NCBI RefSeq assembly: GCF_025685545.1
Contig: NZ_JAGSYC010000020.1
Location: 62,001-126,000 of the forward strand
Direction of reading: 5' to 3'
Origin: Granulicella paludicola
Lineage (GTDB): Bacteria; Acidobacteriota; Terriglobia; Terriglobales; Acidobacteriaceae
DNA length: 64,000 nucleotides
Part shown: positions 17,043-24,121 of the stretch, piece by piece
How positions within the stretch are numbered: position 1 is the first letter of the stretch
Layout: each line of letters opens with the position of its first letter
Notes under the pieces: model-generated
Told to the model about the DNA's origin: nothing
The model's input: the letters and a program-made list of their open reading frames with translations, nothing else
Database searches by the model: none
Position numbers and translations under genes: made by a program

Positions 17043-17426
17043 ATGTTTGAGGTCACGGTCCAGGCTGGATTTTCTTCCGGTCACTATCTGCGCAACTACA
17101 ACGGCAAGTGCGAGAATCCGCATGGCCACAACTATCGTGTGCTGGTAACGCTGGTGGGCGCTGAGCTTGATGAGACGGGGTTGCTGCTGGACTTCAAGCT
17201 GCTGAAACACGTGCTGCGACCGACAGTGGATTATCTCGATCACCAGATGATCAATGACCTTGAGCCCTTCATCACGCTGAACCCCTCAGCGGAGAACCTG
17301 GCGAAGTACTTCTTCGATAACACCGCGACGCAGTTGGATGAGATGACTTCCGGGCGGGTCCGTGTGAAAGACTGCACGGTATTCGAGACGGACACGAGCT
17401 TCGCACGTTATTTCGAACAGCTTTAG
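17043..17426 (+). CDS. queD: 6-carboxy-5,6,7,8-tetrahydropterin synthase family (QueD/PTPS)
   Basis: Converts dihydroneopterin triphosphate to 6-carboxytetrahydropterin for queuosine, or acts as a 6-pyruvoyltetrahydropterin synthase. 127 aa. Zinc ligands H14, H27 and H29 (SSGHYL, NPHGHNY), catalytic C23 in GKCENPHGH, DFKLLK and a Glu-bearing PSAENLAKY segment are all present. No other queuosine genes lie nearby and no preQ1 riboswitch was seen. Its stop overlaps that of the convergent glycosyltransferase by four bases. Confidence 0.92.
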   Translation: MFEVTVQAGFSSGHYLRNYNGKCENPHGHNYRVLVTLVGAELDETGLLLDFKLLKHVLRPTVDYLDHQMINDLEPFITLNPSAENLAKYFFDNTATQLDEMTSGRVRVKDCTVFETDTSFARYFEQL

Positions 17427-18631
17427 CTGAGTTCTTCGCCGGTGGCGCTGGAGTATGTGCGGGAGCGCCACGCTACAGGGCGACCGAAGATTTGTCGCAG
17501 CAGGGCATACCACTGGATGATCAGCAGCAGTGCAGTGCCGAATGGATGCAGCAGAGCGGAGATGATCGGCTGCTTGAATCGCCATGCGGCCAGCAATCGC
17601 GGCAGGACGCTCGCGAGGTAGCCCAGTGTGATGGCCGCGCCGACGGCATGTGCAAGTATGGGTTCGTCAAAGGTCGCGCCGACGATGAGATTCATCGTGC
17701 AGATCGTGAGCCACATTGCCAGAAGCAGTGCGGGTAGGATTTGTCCAAGAATGATCAGCAACGTAAACGGCAGGATGCGCGCTGGTGTGGCTATGCCTTC
17801 GGTTGCGTTCTTTGCGAGACCCATCCAGACGGCGCCGGGTGAGTCGTACATGCGGACACTGGCTAGCGCGGTGAGATCGAAGATGTCGGTGCGAAACCCA
17901 TGCTGACGGAAGAGTTCTGGAAGGCGCAGACCGTCGTGGCGGGTCTCGCGGATGCTGCTGTGTCCTCCGCTAGAGAAATAGGCTGAGCGCTCCGCGAGGA
18001 AGAACTGCCCGCAGCCAGCGGCGTAGGCGGACTTGGTGGTCTTTCTCATGCGGCCCATGGGGAGGAAGCTGAGCAGGATGAAGTGGATCAGAGGGAGCAG
18101 CAATTTTTCCAGCCAGCCGAGGGTGATCTGGCGTGGGAAGCCGGAGAGCAGTGCGATTTGCGATGCTTGCAGTTGGCTGGCGCAGCGTTGCAGCGCGTCC
18201 GGTGCGAGACGAACATCGGCGTCGAGAAACAGAAGGAGTGGTGCGGACGTCGCCTGCGCGAGCAGCCAGCAGGCGTGCTGCTTGCCGTTCCATCCTGCGG
18301 GGAGGGGCTGGCCGTGCAACAGCCGTGCACGAGCGTCGCGGGCGGCGATGGCTTGAACGATCTCGCCGGTGCGGTCGGCGGAGCCGTCATCAAGGACGAG
18401 AACTTCCAAATCAACGCCGGAATTCGCAAGCACGCTCTCGACGCAGGCAGCGATATTGCGCTCTTCATCGCGCGCTGGAATCAGCACGGCGACGCGCAGA
18501 TCGTTCGGGATGCCTATTGGCGCAAGCAAGGGTGCTCGAAAGCGCAGCAGGTTGAAGAGGAAGAGGACAGCCGGAATTGATGCGCAGACGAAGCTGGCGA
18601 AGATGATGGAGAGTATGAGGGTCTCGATCAT
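17423..18631 (-). CDS. Glycosyltransferase family 2, carotenoid-cluster (CrtQ-like)
   Basis: 402 aa membrane glycosyltransferase: an N-terminal TM, then the GT-A core VAVLIPARDEERNIAACVESVL, VLVLDDGSADRTGEI, GWNGKQHACWLLA, LLFLDADVR (DxD) and a QFFLAER segment, followed by three or four C-terminal TMs. This architecture matches CrtQ, which glycosylates a C30 carotenoid acid, and also hopanoid-associated HpnB-like enzymes; the neighbouring desaturases favour the carotenoid role. Last gene of the cluster; its ATG overlaps the acyltransferase stop by four bases (ATGA). Confidence 0.8.
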   Translation of the reverse strand: MIETLILSIIFASFVCASIPAVLFLFNLLRFRAPLLAPIGIPNDLRVAVLIPARDEERNIAACVESVLANSGVDLEVLVLDDGSADRTGEIVQAIAARDARARLLHGQPLPAGWNGKQHACWLLAQATSAPLLLFLDADVRLAPDALQRCASQLQASQIALLSGFPRQITLGWLEKLLLPLIHFILLSFLPMGRMRKTTKSAYAAGCGQFFLAERSAYFSSGGHSSIRETRHDGLRLPELFRQHGFRTDIFDLTALASVRMYDSPGAVWMGLAKNATEGIATPARILPFTLLIILGQILPALLLAMWLTICTMNLIVGATFDEPILAHAVGAAITLGYLASVLPRLLAAWRFKQPIISALLHPFGTALLLIIQWYALLRQIFGRPVAWRSRTYSSATGEELS

Positions 18632-19419
18632 CGCGGAGACCGATCTTCGCGCGCGGTATGGTCAAGTTCGATGGGCTTGCGCGTGAAGAGCGCGCGCAGT
18701 CTCCGCCCCAGGGCATAGATGCCGCCGGTACCACGGCCGCCTTGGAGTAGCGTGGCGAAGGCTCTCGGATCTCTGGCGACAGCAGAAGCCTTGAGGTCTT
18801 CCATGGTCGCAGCCAGTGAGTCTTCAAGCTGTTTTGTCGCCTGCTCCAGGGTGGCACCGTCCGCGACCTGCAGTGGGTTTCCGAAGCGCAGCAGCGTCTC
18901 TGGCAGGCGCTCGTCCCAGAAGACATATTCGATTGCGAGGGGCTGTAGTTGCAGACCTGGCACCCGGGTTGCGAGAGCGCCGAGGCCGGGCTTGAACTCG
19001 AGTGCTGCGCGCGGATCGGCGAAGCGTCCCTGTGGTGTGATCCAGAGGACGCCACCGCTGGCAAGAACAGCCTCTGAGGTCCGGAGGAACTGTGCGGCTC
19101 CGCGCGGAGACTGCATCTCAACGGGGAAGATGCCGAGCCTTTTCAGGATCGGATACTTCGCTAGTGCGGCGGCATCCATCGGTGCGTAGTGATTATGTGA
19201 AGGCAGGAGCAACTCGCCTAGCAGGATACAAACCATCGGGTCCCACCAAGAAGAGTGGTTCGCGTAAATAATTAGCGGGCCCTCCGTGGCGGAGAGATAG
19301 CTGCGGTTCTGCATCAGCACTGCGCGAAAGTGTCGCCGGAAGTAGCCACGCACGATCCTGCGAAACAGCCGCAGGATCGCAGCCGAGATCGGCGGAACAG
19401 CTGGAAGCTCACGTGCCAT
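18628..19419 (-). CDS. PlsC-family acyltransferase, carotenoid-cluster (CrtO-like role)
   Basis: Lysophospholipid-type acyltransferase fold. Motif I NHSSWWDP (HxxxxD), GIFPVEM, WITPQGRFADPR (motif III region) and LQPLAIEYVFW are visible. From the ATG at 19419 it is 263 aa; an upstream in-frame ATG at 19470 would overlap the desaturase gene by 35 bp and is less likely. In staphyloxanthin-type pathways an acyltransferase adds a fatty acid to the sugar of the carotenoid ester; membership of this tight operon suggests that job here. A phospholipid substrate cannot be excluded. Confidence 0.78.
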   Translation of the reverse strand: MARELPAVPPISAAILRLFRRIVRGYFRRHFRAVLMQNRSYLSATEGPLIIYANHSSWWDPMVCILLGELLLPSHNHYAPMDAAALAKYPILKRLGIFPVEMQSPRGAAQFLRTSEAVLASGGVLWITPQGRFADPRAALEFKPGLGALATRVPGLQLQPLAIEYVFWDERLPETLLRFGNPLQVADGATLEQATKQLEDSLAATMEDLKASAVARDPRAFATLLQGGRGTGGIYALGRRLRALFTRKPIELDHTAREDRSPR

Positions 19420-19435
19420 GGTGTCTCTTACTGTC

Positions 19436-20956
19436 TCATGCGAGTGTGGTCTGCGCCTTTGCATCCGCATCGAGAGAGTCTGCAGCGATCCAGCCCGACA
19501 TCATCACCATCGGCATGCCTGGGCCGGGATGAGCGGCGCCACCGGCGAGATAGAGACCGCCGAGTTCTCGGCTGCGGTTCGCGGGCTTGAAGGCACCCAT
19601 GAAGCGTCCGTGCGAGGAGAGGCCGTAGATTGCGCCGTTCAGAACTTTGTAGCGTTCATGGATGTCCAGCGGCGTCAGAGCACTTTCAAAGACGATCCGT
19701 TCTTCGATGTCCTCGCAGCCCGCGGTGCGCTTAAGCTTGTCGAGGATCACCTGGCGATACGCGGGGAACATCTTCTTCCAGTCGTGGTGCGGGCGTAGAT
19801 AAGGCGTATGTACGAGGATGTACATGGCCTCGCCGCCTTCGGGCGCGCTATCAGGATCGCTGCGTGCGGTGCAGGCTAGATAACAGGTCGGATCCGGGGC
19901 AGGTTCGCCGAGATTGTAGATGGCGTGGAACTCTTCATCCGGATCGCGCGAGAAGACGAAGTCGTGGTGCGCGAGATGGTCGTAACGCTTGTTCAAACCG
20001 AGGTAGAGGACGACGCCACTGCAGGCCGGCTCGTAGCTGCGCTTGTGTTCAAACTCGCGCGCGGCGGGGGTGCCCTGCAGAAGTTCGCGATGCGTTCGCA
20101 CAGCATCTTCGTTGCTGACGATTGCGTCGAAGCGGTAGGTGTCGCCAGCGGATGTGACGAGACCGGTCACGGGGCCGTGCTCGCCCTTCGTGGTGATCTG
20201 CGCGACTTCGGTGTCGGTGTGGAAGGTAACGCCGAGTTCGGTTGCGAGTTTGACCATCGCTTCCGGCACAGCGCGCGTGCCGCCCATCGGATACCAGATG
20301 CCCTCCTCCATCTGCATGGAGCCGATGGCGGTGAGGATCGCGGGTGAGGCGTCTGGATTGGAGCCGACGTACTGCACCATGTGGTCGAGCATCTGCGCTG
20401 TGTTCGGTTCGGAGATGAACTCACGAACGGCACCCGCGACGGTCTGTCCCATACGCATCTTCAGCACGTCGCGGAGCACGTTCAGGTCGAACGCTCCGCC
20501 GATATCGAAGGTGTCTTTGATCGAGCCGACGGATTTCCAGAAGAAGAACTTGTCGCTGATGGTGTGCAGCTCTTTCGAGAGCGCCATCAACTGCTGATAC
20601 TTAGCTCCCATGCCGGGGAAACGGCCTTCGAGATCGTGCGACATCGCCTGGATGTCGTCGACGAGGTCGATGCGCGCGCCGTCGTCGAAGAAGCAGCGCC
20701 ACTGGGGATCGAGCCGCACCATGTCGAGGTAGTCTTCAAGCTTGCGTCCGGACTCTGCGAAGATCTTGCGCAGCACCGACGGCTGAATCAGGATCGTCGG
20801 TCCCATATCGAAGCGAAAGCCTTTTTCGCGCAGCTGTGCAGCCTTGCCGCCGAGCCACGGGTTTTTCTCGAAGACCGTTACTTCGTGCCCACGCGCCGCC
20901 AGCGTACAAGCCGCGGCCAATCCTGCTAATCCTGATCCGATTACACCAACGCGCAT
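19436..20956 (-). CDS. Carotenoid desaturase/oxidase, CrtI/CrtN/CrtP family (1)
   Basis: 506 aa FAD enzyme. N-terminal VGVIGSGLAGLAAACTLAARGHEVTVFEK and GGKAAQLREKGFRFDMGPT, C-terminal LGGLYLAGGAAHPGPGMPMVMMSG. It acts on a membrane-embedded C30 or C40 polyene, by dehydrogenation or terminal methyl oxidation; sequence alone does not separate the two. Stop and start distances to its neighbours (16 and 28 bp) indicate one operon with the acyltransferase downstream and the aldehyde dehydrogenase upstream. Confidence 0.88.
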   Translation of the reverse strand: MRVGVIGSGLAGLAAACTLAARGHEVTVFEKNPWLGGKAAQLREKGFRFDMGPTILIQPSVLRKIFAESGRKLEDYLDMVRLDPQWRCFFDDGARIDLVDDIQAMSHDLEGRFPGMGAKYQQLMALSKELHTISDKFFFWKSVGSIKDTFDIGGAFDLNVLRDVLKMRMGQTVAGAVREFISEPNTAQMLDHMVQYVGSNPDASPAILTAIGSMQMEEGIWYPMGGTRAVPEAMVKLATELGVTFHTDTEVAQITTKGEHGPVTGLVTSAGDTYRFDAIVSNEDAVRTHRELLQGTPAAREFEHKRSYEPACSGVVLYLGLNKRYDHLAHHDFVFSRDPDEEFHAIYNLGEPAPDPTCYLACTARSDPDSAPEGGEAMYILVHTPYLRPHHDWKKMFPAYRQVILDKLKRTAGCEDIEERIVFESALTPLDIHERYKVLNGAIYGLSSHGRFMGAFKPANRSRELGGLYLAGGAAHPGPGMPMVMMSGWIAADSLDADAKAQTTLA

Positions 20957-20984
20957 ACGTTCTCCGCCGTTCCGTTCTAATTAT

Positions 20985-22481
20985 TTATCGATTGCGTGCG
21001 CTTGAGATCAGCGCGCGCAGACAAGTCCATCGCTGCGACAGCGTCCCGCCGTGCAGCGTGCCGATCAAGGCTGTAAACAGGGGCAAGTCGGCATCGGTGG
21101 TTGCGTCCAGATGCCGCATCGCTCCGTTGCGACGCAGGATCAGCGTCTTTACGGCAGTCATCTCCAGCAGCCCTTCCGAGCCACGCGTTACGCCATAGCC
21201 GCTGGCACCGCGACCACCGAAGGGGACGCGCGGATCGGCGGTGGGAGCGATGATGTCGTTCACGAGCACGGTGCCGGCCTTCAGCTTGCGAGCGATCATG
21301 CGCGCCTTGGGCATCTCTTGTTTTGCGCAGAAGATGCTGAGTGTGAGCGCGTAGCTGCACTGCGCGTACATCGCCGGGATATGCATCATCGTATCGGCTG
21401 CAAGCAGCGAGAGTACGGGAGCGAAGATGTCACTGCGAGCGATTTCCATCGATGGCTTTGCACTGTCGATCAGCACGGGGCGTTGTGCGTCGGGGGTGAG
21501 GTCTCCCAACAACTGAGCGCCTTCGTCGATGGAGGAAGCAATCATTAAACGCAGGCGCTCGCTTGTGGTGGCGTTGAGCTGAACAGGCGGGACGTCCCGC
21601 AACGCCTCGATCAGCAGCGGCCGCAAAAGTGCCATCGTCGCGGTGGAGGCGAAGAGCCTGCGAGGCGACATGCAGACGGCACCGCCATTCAGTCGCAGCC
21701 CGAAGGCAACAGCGCGCGCGACCAGCCTCAGATCGGCGTCTGGCGTGACGAGAATGGCGTCCGCTCCAGAGAGCTCCACTACGGCGGGGGTCGCTGTTTC
21801 CGCGAGGGTGGATAACACTGTCTGGCCGGTGTGCGAGGAGCCGGTGAAGACGACTTTGTCGGGCGATTCGGCCAGTGCCTGCTGCGCGGCAGCAACGCTT
21901 TCATCGGTGATTGTCAGCGCACCCACCGGTAGACCGGCTTCCATCAGTGTTTGCGCGAGGAGTTCGGCGACGGGGCCTCCGCCGCTGCCCGGCTTCCAGG
22001 TGACCGTGTTGCCTGCGGCGAGGGCCTGCAGCGTCTGCGTGCCCGGCAAAAAGAGAGGGAAGTTCGAGGGACCAACGATGAGGATGTGCCCGAGGGGTTC
22101 GCGATGTACCTCGGCTTGAATGCCGCTTAGCCACATCGGACGACCGGCGCTTCCGAGCTTGCGGGGCTTGAGGATCTTTGCCGCGTTGCGTTCGAGGAAA
22201 CGGCAGGCATCGAGCAGCGGTAGCAGTTCTGTGGTCAGCGTGTCGGCTTTCGTTCGCGCCAGCTCGGGGGAGATGGCGTCTGCGATCTGCACTGCGCGCT
22301 GGGCCAGAAGATGACGCGCTCGGCTGAGGACGGTCAGTCGCTCGGCTACGGTTCGCATCCCCCAGTCAACGGGCGCTTTGGTCGATGAGGCAATCGTGCA
22401 GGACATCAACCCGCATCGCTCATTGGCTACCTTCGCCGATGCTTGCGCTTGCGCTGCTATCGGGCTGGAGGCCGTTTTCAC
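20985..22481 (-). CDS. Aldehyde dehydrogenase of the carotenoid cluster (AldH-like)
   Basis: 498 aa NAD(P)-dependent aldehyde dehydrogenase superfamily. Visible: EPLGHILIVGPSNFPLFLPG, NTVTWKPGSGGGPVAELLA, FTGSSHTGQTVL, the general-base region VVELSGADA and the nucleophile region LNGGAVCMSPRRLF (Cys). It would oxidise a terminal carotenoid aldehyde to the acid, as AldH does in staphyloxanthin synthesis. The ATG overlaps the upstream desaturase stop by four bases. Confidence 0.85.
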   Translation of the reverse strand: MKTASSPIAAQAQASAKVANERCGLMSCTIASSTKAPVDWGMRTVAERLTVLSRARHLLAQRAVQIADAISPELARTKADTLTTELLPLLDACRFLERNAAKILKPRKLGSAGRPMWLSGIQAEVHREPLGHILIVGPSNFPLFLPGTQTLQALAAGNTVTWKPGSGGGPVAELLAQTLMEAGLPVGALTITDESVAAAQQALAESPDKVVFTGSSHTGQTVLSTLAETATPAVVELSGADAILVTPDADLRLVARAVAFGLRLNGGAVCMSPRRLFASTATMALLRPLLIEALRDVPPVQLNATTSERLRLMIASSIDEGAQLLGDLTPDAQRPVLIDSAKPSMEIARSDIFAPVLSLLAADTMMHIPAMYAQCSYALTLSIFCAKQEMPKARMIARKLKAGTVLVNDIIAPTADPRVPFGGRGASGYGVTRGSEGLLEMTAVKTLILRRNGAMRHLDATTDADLPLFTALIGTLHGGTLSQRWTCLRALISSARNR

Positions 22482-24121
22482 GAAGCGACCTGCATCACGC
22501 TGCCGTCTTCTGCGGCCGCGAGTCTGGTCTCGCTGAAACTTTGCGGCTCAATGCCGAGGTCCTGAAGCAAAAGCGTGCTGCTAATGCGGGCTGACTGGAA
22601 GATAACGGGCAGACCTGAGCCGGGATGCGTGCCGCCGCCCGTGAGGTACATGTTGCTCACATCCTCAAATCGATTGTGCGGCCGCAGGTGCAGCATCTGG
22701 TCAAGCGAATGCTTCATCGAGAAAGTAGCGCCCTTATGCAGGCCGAACTCCGTCGCCCAGCCGCTCGGGGTGATGATCTTCTCCGTGCGGACGCGCTGCC
22801 GCACATCGTGGAGGCCGATCTTCTCCATCTGGCGAAAGGCAAGTTCACGGAAGCGTGGCATCTCTTTCGACCAGTCTACATTCGGACTTTCGTGGGTCAC
22901 TGGCAGCAATACGTACAGCGTGGAGTGACCTTCCGGCGCGAGTGTCGGATCGGTGATCGAGGCGTTCTGGACATAGAAGGATGGTTGCTCACTGAGACGA
23001 TGCAGCTCTTCGATGTCGGAGAGGTTCTGCTTGTAACCCTTCTCCAGATAGATTGTGTGGTGAGCCACATCGTCGTAGCGGCCTTCGATGCCGAGATACA
23101 TCATGAAGGTGGAGCAGGAGTACTGCTTGCCCGCAATCTTTTTGTCTGTCCACTTACTACGATGTTGCTCCGGGATGAGGTTTCGCGCGGCTTCGGCGAA
23201 GTCGGCGTTCATCACCACCGCGTCCGCCAGTAAATTGCCCTTCGCTGTGCGAACGCCAACGGCGCTGCTGCGACCATTTACACGGTCCATCAGCACTTCT
23301 TCCACGGGCTCGTTCAAGCGGATCTCGACGCCCATCTCTTCGCAGAGGCGCGCCATCGTCTTCGTCACAGCGCCGCAGCCGCCGATGGGATGGAAGACAC
23401 CGTGCTCATATTCGAGGAAGGAGAGGATGGAAAACAGCGAGGGGCAGCGGAAAGGGCTCATGCCCAGATACTTCGATTGGAAGCTGAAGCCGAGCCGGAT
23501 ACGCTCGTCCTTGAAGTGGGTGCGCAGGTCGTCGTTCAGAGAAAGCCACGGCTTCATCAGCGGGAGCAGCTTCAGAAGCTCGGGACGCAGCAGGTCGGTC
23601 CACTTTTCAAAGGGTGATTCAAGTACCGGCAGAAAGCCTGCCAGCTTCTTGCGATTGCGATTGAGGAAGTTGCGAAACTCTTTTGCATCGTCGGGCGAGA
23701 TGGCTGCGATCTCCTGCTCCATGCGAGCGACGTCGGCAGTTGCATCGATCTGGCCGCCTTCGCCGAAGACCAGGCGATATTGCGGATCAAGCCGCTTCAT
23801 CGGCACCTCGCGGTCGAGATCATAGCCACATTCGGCGAAGATCTCTTTGAGGACGCGGGGATAGAGGAAGAATGTGGGGCCGATGTCGAACTTGTAGCCG
23901 TCCTGCTCCATCGTGGCGGTGCGACCACCGACGCGACCATGCTTTTCAACGACAGTGACCTGCACGCCAGCCTTTGCCAGCAGCATGGCGGTAGCAAGAC
24001 CGCCGGGACCTGCTCCTACGATGATGACGCGCCGGGCGTCGGACGCGCGCTTCGAATCCGAAGTTACTTTCAATCCACCGATACTCAAGGGGTGTGGCTC
24101 GTCCTTAGGGAGGTCTCTCAA
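22478..24121 (-). CDS. Carotenoid desaturase/oxidase, CrtI/CrtN/CrtP family (2)
   Basis: 547 aa paralogue of the 19436 gene and first gene of the operon. RRVIIVGAGPGGLATAMLLA and GGRTATMEQDGYKFDIGPTF at the N-terminus, HPIGGCGAVTKTMARL in the middle, and the typical YLTGGGTHPGSGLPVIF near the end. It shares the overall plan of gene 1 but clearly belongs to a different subgroup, fitting a division into one desaturase and one terminal oxygenase. The start is uncertain: the frame opens with TTG at 24121, another TTG lies about 16 codons in, and no ATG precedes the FAD motif. Confidence 0.87.
   Translation of the reverse strand: MRDLPKDEPHPLSIGGLKVTSDSKRASDARRVIIVGAGPGGLATAMLLAKAGVQVTVVEKHGRVGGRTATMEQDGYKFDIGPTFFLYPRVLKEIFAECGYDLDREVPMKRLDPQYRLVFGEGGQIDATADVARMEQEIAAISPDDAKEFRNFLNRNRKKLAGFLPVLESPFEKWTDLLRPELLKLLPLMKPWLSLNDDLRTHFKDERIRLGFSFQSKYLGMSPFRCPSLFSILSFLEYEHGVFHPIGGCGAVTKTMARLCEEMGVEIRLNEPVEEVLMDRVNGRSSAVGVRTAKGNLLADAVVMNADFAEAARNLIPEQHRSKWTDKKIAGKQYSCSTFMMYLGIEGRYDDVAHHTIYLEKGYKQNLSDIEELHRLSEQPSFYVQNASITDPTLAPEGHSTLYVLLPVTHESPNVDWSKEMPRFRELAFRQMEKIGLHDVRQRVRTEKIITPSGWATEFGLHKGATFSMKHSLDQMLHLRPHNRFEDVSNMYLTGGGTHPGSGLPVIFQSARISSTLLLQDLGIEPQSFSETRLAAAEDGSVMQVAS

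Follow-up and report, generated by a model that had tools for sequence, protein, structure and literature searches.

We analysed a 64,000-nucleotide stretch of Granulicella paludicola DNA (G000:C24:62001-126000, hereafter the window; the genome comprises 4.96 Mb in 26 contigs), which carries on its minus strand, at 17423-24121, five open reading frames (ORFs) in the order FAD1, ALDH, FAD2, acyltransferase and GT2, where FAD1 and FAD2 are enzymes dependent on flavin adenine dinucleotide (FAD), ALDH is an aldehyde dehydrogenase and GT2 is a family-2 glycosyltransferase. The results showed that this is very probably an operon for a C30 carotenoid glycosyl ester made by the squalene route, with squalene supplied by the genes that feed hopanoid synthesis. 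The first-pass annotation of the window had proposed a five-gene operon here, and both its boundaries and the gene families were recovered by our searches. Other bacteria are already known to make C30 carotenoids by way of squalene, as set out in the cited parts of two reports (PMC10448405, PMC13274349), and the operon is a further member of this route, while a literature search over a partial collection of papers, most of which were not opened, found no account of this operon in Acidobacteria.

Enzymes of the operon and the probable source of squalene

FAD1 and FAD2 were the only proteins in the genome to exceed the cut-off of the CrtI-family model TIGR02734 (238 bits), and their kinship was examined in a main tree of 53 rows and in a tree of 78 rows, in which the branch of the HpnE outgroup is very long and provides no root. 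FAD1 groups with the FAD1 of Methylorubrum, Methylobacterium, Microvirga, Azospirillum, Planctomycetota and Verrucomicrobiota (98/97 in the 53-row tree), and FAD2 forms a clade with the FAD2 of the same groups (100/100), nested in a wider CrtP clade that includes the CrtP of Bacillales (100/99). The C40 CrtI sequences of Pantoea and of three genomes from the family of G. paludicola form a clade of their own (100/100), and membership of FAD1 or FAD2 in it was rejected. Grouping of both desaturases with C40 CrtI, the outcome that the first-pass annotation had named as contrary to its reading, was contradicted because the CrtI clade is separate from those of FAD1 and FAD2, and the earlier description of the two enzymes as CrtN- and CrtP-type was borne out. 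The two CrtN rows of Bacillales fall apart from FAD1, at a position that is itself unsupported (80/38). In a database search with FAD2 the closest sequences were Acidobacteria records, the named ones being Granulicella, Acidicapsa and Terriglobus.

The absence of a dehydrosqualene or phytoene synthase from the window, and a possible origin of the polyene in hopanoid squalene genes, had both been put forward earlier, and both agree with our results. The genome has two genes of the synthase family SQS_PSY (PF00494), adjacent on contig C22, one of which is HpnC (302.6 bits, above the cut-off of 250) and the other of which has HpnD as its top-scoring model (211.5 bits) and is followed by HpnE (391.9 bits, above the cut-off of 283). 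A CrtM or CrtB hidden in the window or elsewhere in the genome was rejected, as the profiles matched only HpnC and HpnD and tblastn over the window was negative. Because the two genes on C22 are HpnC- and HpnD-like and neither CrtM nor CrtB was found in the genome, squalene is therefore the sole C30 precursor pathway found, and hpnCDE is the best explanation for the source of the polyene. A Zn-type alcohol dehydrogenase gene adjoins hpnC, the same neighbour that is reported, in the part of the source cited, where Acidobacteria of subdivisions 1 and 3 carry hpnCDE (PMC5462960), and a squalene-hopene cyclase gene (shc, 700.8 bits) lies on contig C26. By tblastn, no squalene or phytoene synthase was detected in any of 23 operon stretches of the same type (type A, below; 432,526 bases, window included), and the same search was positive at 9 of 9 control loci, two of which had supplied queries. 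The earlier phrase that the operon lacks its synthase is thus correct for the window, but a cluster without CrtM is the rule for the squalene-route pathway and no anomaly.

The PF01553 acyltransferase and GT2 adjoin the CrtP-type FAD2, and the same pair follows FAD2 in loci of Methylobacteriaceae, Azospirillum, Planctomycetota and Verrucomicrobiota. Both proteins are closer to those of the Methylobacterium/Azospirillum cassette than to staphylococcal CrtO and CrtQ, and the glycosyltransferase scores below the cut-offs of HpnB (121.6 bits of 379) and CruG (92 of 600). In the alignment of ALDH to a solved aldehyde dehydrogenase, the Asn, Lys, Glu and Cys active-site positions are filled. The five-gene arrangement is not a matter of chance, because the order recurs in 16 of the 22 other type-A loci of the family.

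Based on homology, HpnD, HpnC and HpnE would convert two molecules of farnesyl diphosphate to squalene, FAD1 would desaturate squalene towards diapolycopene, FAD2 would oxidize a terminal methyl group to the aldehyde and ALDH would take the aldehyde to the acid, after which GT2 would place a sugar on the carboxyl group and the acyltransferase a fatty acid on the sugar. The predicted product is a membrane pigment of the acyl-glycosyl diapolycopenoate type, for which the pigment route and squalene-hopene cyclase would use a common squalene pool. The individual reactions and their order, the conversion of one or both ends to acids, and the sugar and fatty acid are all inferred. The earlier proposal of a tailoring set for a C30 carotenoid acid glycosyl ester is supported, as a prediction, by the families, the phylogeny and the genetically verified clusters of Azospirillum brasilense and Methylobacterium extorquens. 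The pigment would most likely serve in oxidative stress, light stress and membrane order; for an Occallatibacter, the relevant part of a review links carotenoids to oxidative-stress tolerance (PMC7661733).

Alternative pathways and known counterparts

Several observations weigh against this assignment. The HpnD-like protein scores below the cut-off of its model (278.6 bits), and a small synthase tree gives no support to its position. At least three SQS_PSY matches are present in 8 of 34 type-A genomes, and in three of these eight (G119, G147 and G174) the extra gene is CrtB-like and lies away from the operon. Co-occurrence of the operon with SQS_PSY gave P = 0.005 over the order and P = 0.69 within the family, a measure that is uninformative because nearly all family members carry SQS_PSY. 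In addition, the characterized clusters were represented in our comparison by Methylorubrum and Methylobacterium loci and by another A. brasilense strain, not by the AM1 and Sp7 records.

The low HpnD score, together with the CrtB-like genes of these three relatives, which are accompanied by CrtI or a CrtI fragment elsewhere in the genome, could be taken to indicate a C40 pathway, in which the desaturases would be phytoene desaturases and CrtB would have gone unrecognized, for example in the gene called HpnD. We regard this as very improbable, given that neither FAD enzyme falls in the C40 CrtI clade and that the gene in question finds its best match in the HpnD model, lies between HpnC and HpnE and belongs to a cluster with the alcohol dehydrogenase neighbour of acidobacterial hpnCDE. 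It is also very unlikely that the HpnD-like enzyme makes dehydrosqualene directly and feeds a diapophytoene route of the CrtM type, as in staphylococci; HpnD and CrtM are homologous, and the protein stands on the CrtM/HpnC/HpnD side of the small tree with no starred branch, but HpnC and HpnE accompany its gene, FAD1 does not group with the CrtN of Bacillales, and squalene accumulates when crtNPOQ is deleted in A. brasilense, according to the part of that report used here (PMC13274349). The remaining alternative, that the pathway ends at a dialdehyde or a free acid and the acyltransferase and glycosyltransferase serve a different lipid, agrees with the other type-A loci that show, in the stretch examined, FAD1 and FAD2 only (4/22) or FAD1, ALDH and FAD2 only (1/22). 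A further locus (1/22) has FAD1-FAD2 with the acyltransferase-glycosyltransferase pair about 6 kb away. This alternative is extremely unlikely, in that the pair follows FAD2 in 16 of the 22 loci and in the four other groups named above, and the corresponding pair of M. extorquens was confirmed by deletion, as stated in the cited part of the report (PMC10448405).

A squalene-route glycosyl-ester operon also has close counterparts. The A. brasilense locus has the same gene content (FAD1-FAD2-acyltransferase-glycosyltransferase with an ALDH of the same clade, and hpnCDE at another locus), with identities to the window of 55% for FAD1, 61% for FAD2, 40% for the acyltransferase, 46% for the glycosyltransferase and 47% for ALDH, but its ALDH is divergent and upstream where that of the window is internal, and a DUF2141 gene follows its operon, where tblastn found none at the window. 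In strain Sp7, deletion of hpnCDE or of crtNPOQ abolishes the carotenoid, and the latter mutant is the one that accumulates squalene (PMC13274349, in part). M. extorquens AM1, whose pigment is reported as a C30 acyl-glucosyl diapolycopenedioate and whose glycosyltransferase and acyltransferase were confirmed by deletion and complementation (PMC10448405, in part), has the same types of CrtN, CrtP, acyltransferase and glycosyltransferase and draws squalene from HpnCDE, but its genes are not in one operon and its ALDH is not identified, in contrast to the single operon with ALDH found here. By analogy, the cluster deletions in these two species would support the squalene route for the present operon.

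The staphyloxanthin operon (crtOPQMN; the Staphylococcus xylosus plasmid served as reference) resembles the window in chemistry, with a desaturase, a terminal oxidase, a glycosyltransferase and an acyltransferase, and AldH is likewise part of staphyloxanthin chemistry. In comparison, the G. paludicola system has no CrtM and no PF18927 CrtO (0 matches in the genome), its CrtN- and CrtQ-type proteins are not the closest kin of the staphylococcal ones, and staphyloxanthin CrtP is only a distant sister of FAD2. The name staphyloxanthin operon was therefore rejected for the window, on the missing CrtO, the placement of FAD1 away from Bacillales CrtN and a glycosyltransferase nearer to alphaproteobacterial ones; of the earlier term "staphyloxanthin-like" the chemistry is retained and the kinship is not, and of the earlier "CrtQ-like" the GT2 family is retained, with alphaproteobacterial glycosyltransferases closer than CrtQ.

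Among the 80 genome-contig loci, 11, all of Microvirga or Salinarimonadaceae, have a synthase-family ORF downstream of the operon. These ORFs are long (554-971 amino acids, stop to stop), which is consistent with a putative HpnC-HpnD fusion, and at L095:15305-16963 (Microvirga) HpnC and HpnD are apparently fused, the row of carotenoid genes continuing to a FAD enzyme and ispH. Two of five alphaproteobacterial plasmid loci (Microvirga and Palleronia) have a synthase-family gene near the operon, the Palleronia plasmid carrying two synthases and a FAD enzyme beside it. The near-operon synthases that were placed in the tree fall with HpnC/HpnD-type rows and not with CrtB or CrtM, the long ORFs being among HpnD-type rows; at L180 and L148 the CrtM query scored at least as high as some Hpn queries.

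Gene layout

Coordinates are given in Table 1. Several ATGA overlaps had been claimed earlier; one is present, the other overlap is GTGA, and 28 bases separate ALDH from FAD2 and 16 bases FAD2 from the acyltransferase, if the latter begins at the ATG at 19419 and not at 19470, to which the mechanical ORF reaches. The start of FAD1 is uncertain, with no ATG and only TTG codons, e.g., at 24121 and 24088; the ORF begins at the former and the real start is perhaps the latter, and type-A relatives align only from residue 14-30 of FAD1. The NHSSWWD of the acyltransferase is what we take to be the HX4D motif. At its 3' end the GT2 gene meets, in convergent orientation, a gene for a QueD-like protein (17043-17426; QueD, 98.1 bits).

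Table 1. Features of the operon in the window, with examples of DUF2141 genes at other loci
Feature	Position	Strand	Basis
FAD1, CrtN-type (squalene-route) desaturase	22478..24121	-	TIGR02734, 533 bits; clade 98/97
GTGA stop/start overlap, FAD1-ALDH	22478..22481	-	sequence
ALDH, C30-operon subfamily aldehyde dehydrogenase, VELSG motif	20985..22481	-	PF00171, 240.9 bits; operon clade 100/100
FAD2, CrtP-type terminal-methyl oxidase	19436..20956	-	TIGR02734, 395 bits; clade 100/100
Lysophospholipid-type acyltransferase, NHSSWWD	18628..19419	-	PF01553, 41.5 bits; motif read from sequence
ATGA overlap, acyltransferase-GT2	18628..18631	-	sequence
Family-2 glycosyltransferase (GT2)	17423..18631	-	PF00535, 70.2 bits
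DUF2141 genes, other loci	L094:14079-14546; L096:13919-14332; L098:8537-9001; L066:8752-9129		

The aldehyde dehydrogenase and two operon types

Of the 35 rows in the ALDH tree, 21, all from operons, form one clade (100/100) that spans Acidobacteriota, Planctomycetota, Verrucomicrobiota and Alphaproteobacteria, and the five other homologues found in the G. paludicola genome are at most 32% identical to the operon ALDH. The motif ELSG is read in 19 of the 20 clade members with letters at the motif columns, the exception being EASG, and ELGG is read in all 7 type-B ALDHs and in 4 of the 5 paralogues, the fifth being misaligned there. A profile of the subfamily found a clear member (469-716 bits) in 4 of 12 genomes, namely three Planctomycetota whose operon stretch lacks an ALDH, and G211, itself part of the query. 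It detected none in 7 of 7 Methylobacteriaceae genomes or in Terriglobus roseus, where only generic ALDHs were matched (best 164-211 bits). For M. extorquens AM1, the cited part of the report states that the aldehyde dehydrogenase was not found and that two candidates failed (PMC10448405); non-detection of the subfamily in Methylobacteriaceae would fit that result, and for T. roseus, whose examined stretch shows FAD1 and FAD2 only, an aldehyde end product and no ester are predicted. A simple picture of one subfamily is opposed by type B and by the plasmid operons of Microvirga and Palleronia, as the ALDHs of the former and those near the latter all lie outside the clade and read ELGG.

The two types emerged from a survey of 200 genomes drawn from the order. 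At E <= 1e-40, FAD1 had a match in 58 of them, which divide into type A (34 genomes, the present one among them, at 63-100% identity to the FAD1 of the window), type B (23 genomes, 40-45%) and G197, whose sole match is of the CrtI type, at 31%. Cultured type-A relatives include Granulicella rosea and Acidicapsa dinghuensis. No genome among the 57 has both types (P = 0.01, kinship ignored). The type-B operons (e.g., in G049) share with the window the FAD1 homologue, usually an ALDH, a GT2 and the absence of a synthase from the stretch (tblastn, 22 stretches). They differ in that FAD2 goes with S. xylosus CrtP (45-49% identity; sister in the tree, 100/99), the glycosyltransferase is nearer to CrtQ (a higher score to CrtQ than to the window protein in 4/4 printed), the ALDH is of another clade, and CrtO replaces the PF01553 acyltransferase, which had no match in the 22 loci examined from the 23 genomes. 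Of the 23 type-B genomes, 20 carry PF18927 CrtO next to FAD2; it also occurs in 2 of the 34 type-A genomes, at a distance from the operon, and in 2 genomes with neither operon. FAD1, FAD2 and the glycosyltransferase are together in 19 of 22 type-B loci, 17 of these with ALDH, and FAD1 is alone in 3 of 22. Type-B FAD1 is sister to the FAD1 squalene-route clade (100/100). The number of SQS_PSY genes is two in 26/34 type-A and 22/23 type-B genomes, and we presume the pairs to be HpnC and HpnD.

Some further observations were made at these loci. The type-B operons (L062-L081, L090 and L091; e.g., L066:4935-12192) consist of FAD1-B, ALDH-B, often DUF2141, the staphylococcal-type CrtP, the CrtQ-like glycosyltransferase and PF18927 CrtO, with an XRE-cupin regulator gene at L066. 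The lone type-B FAD1 of L068 (10124-12857), L081 and L091, with no FAD2, ALDH or glycosyltransferase match, stands beside a gene that we assume to encode an AarF/ABC1-like kinase. The gene for the small DUF2141 protein is near the C30 operon in 13/22 type-B loci, 26/91 remaining loci and 0/23 type-A stretches. L108, on a contig labelled Verrucomicrobia, has FAD2-acyltransferase-glycosyltransferase with a Granulicella-like FAD2 80% identical to that of the window, by mislabelling, misbinning or recent transfer. C40-type CrtB-CrtI pairs occur at L082, L083 and L084; the three genomes concerned, all from the family, are G197, G119 and G174, and in the latter two the pair sits apart from the C30 operon. 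A carotenoid study of Occallatibacter reportedly treated the synthase cluster found widely in Acidobacteriia as one for phytoene; judged by the data at hand, clusters of this kind would be hpnCDE. L088 and L089 encode a third SQS_PSY protein of about 350 amino acids, a length matched in 6 of 15 genomes re-searched (two were read), which is perhaps the squalene synthase FdfT, reported for some Acidobacteria in the part of the source cited (PMC5462960).

Taken together, these data allow a tentative proposal, which we hold to be possible and rather less than probable: that the operon ALDH is a dedicated C30-carotenal dehydrogenase subfamily spanning four phyla and replaced in Methylobacteriaceae, and that one family holds two mutually exclusive squalene-fed operons, type B joining a squalene-route CrtN with CrtP, CrtQ and CrtO of the staphylococcal type, in which case tailoring of the staphyloxanthin kind would exist without CrtM and may predate it. 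The interest of the system rests mainly on this ALDH subfamily, a candidate family for the step left open in M. extorquens, and on the contrast of the two types within one genus, which would be a natural experiment on carotenoid ester tailoring and on the origin of CrtM-based pathways. In general, the analysis places a complete single-operon squalene route, with the ALDH inside the operon, in soil Acidobacteriota, where two membrane lipids, the hopanoids and the C30 pigment, would be linked through one squalene pool.

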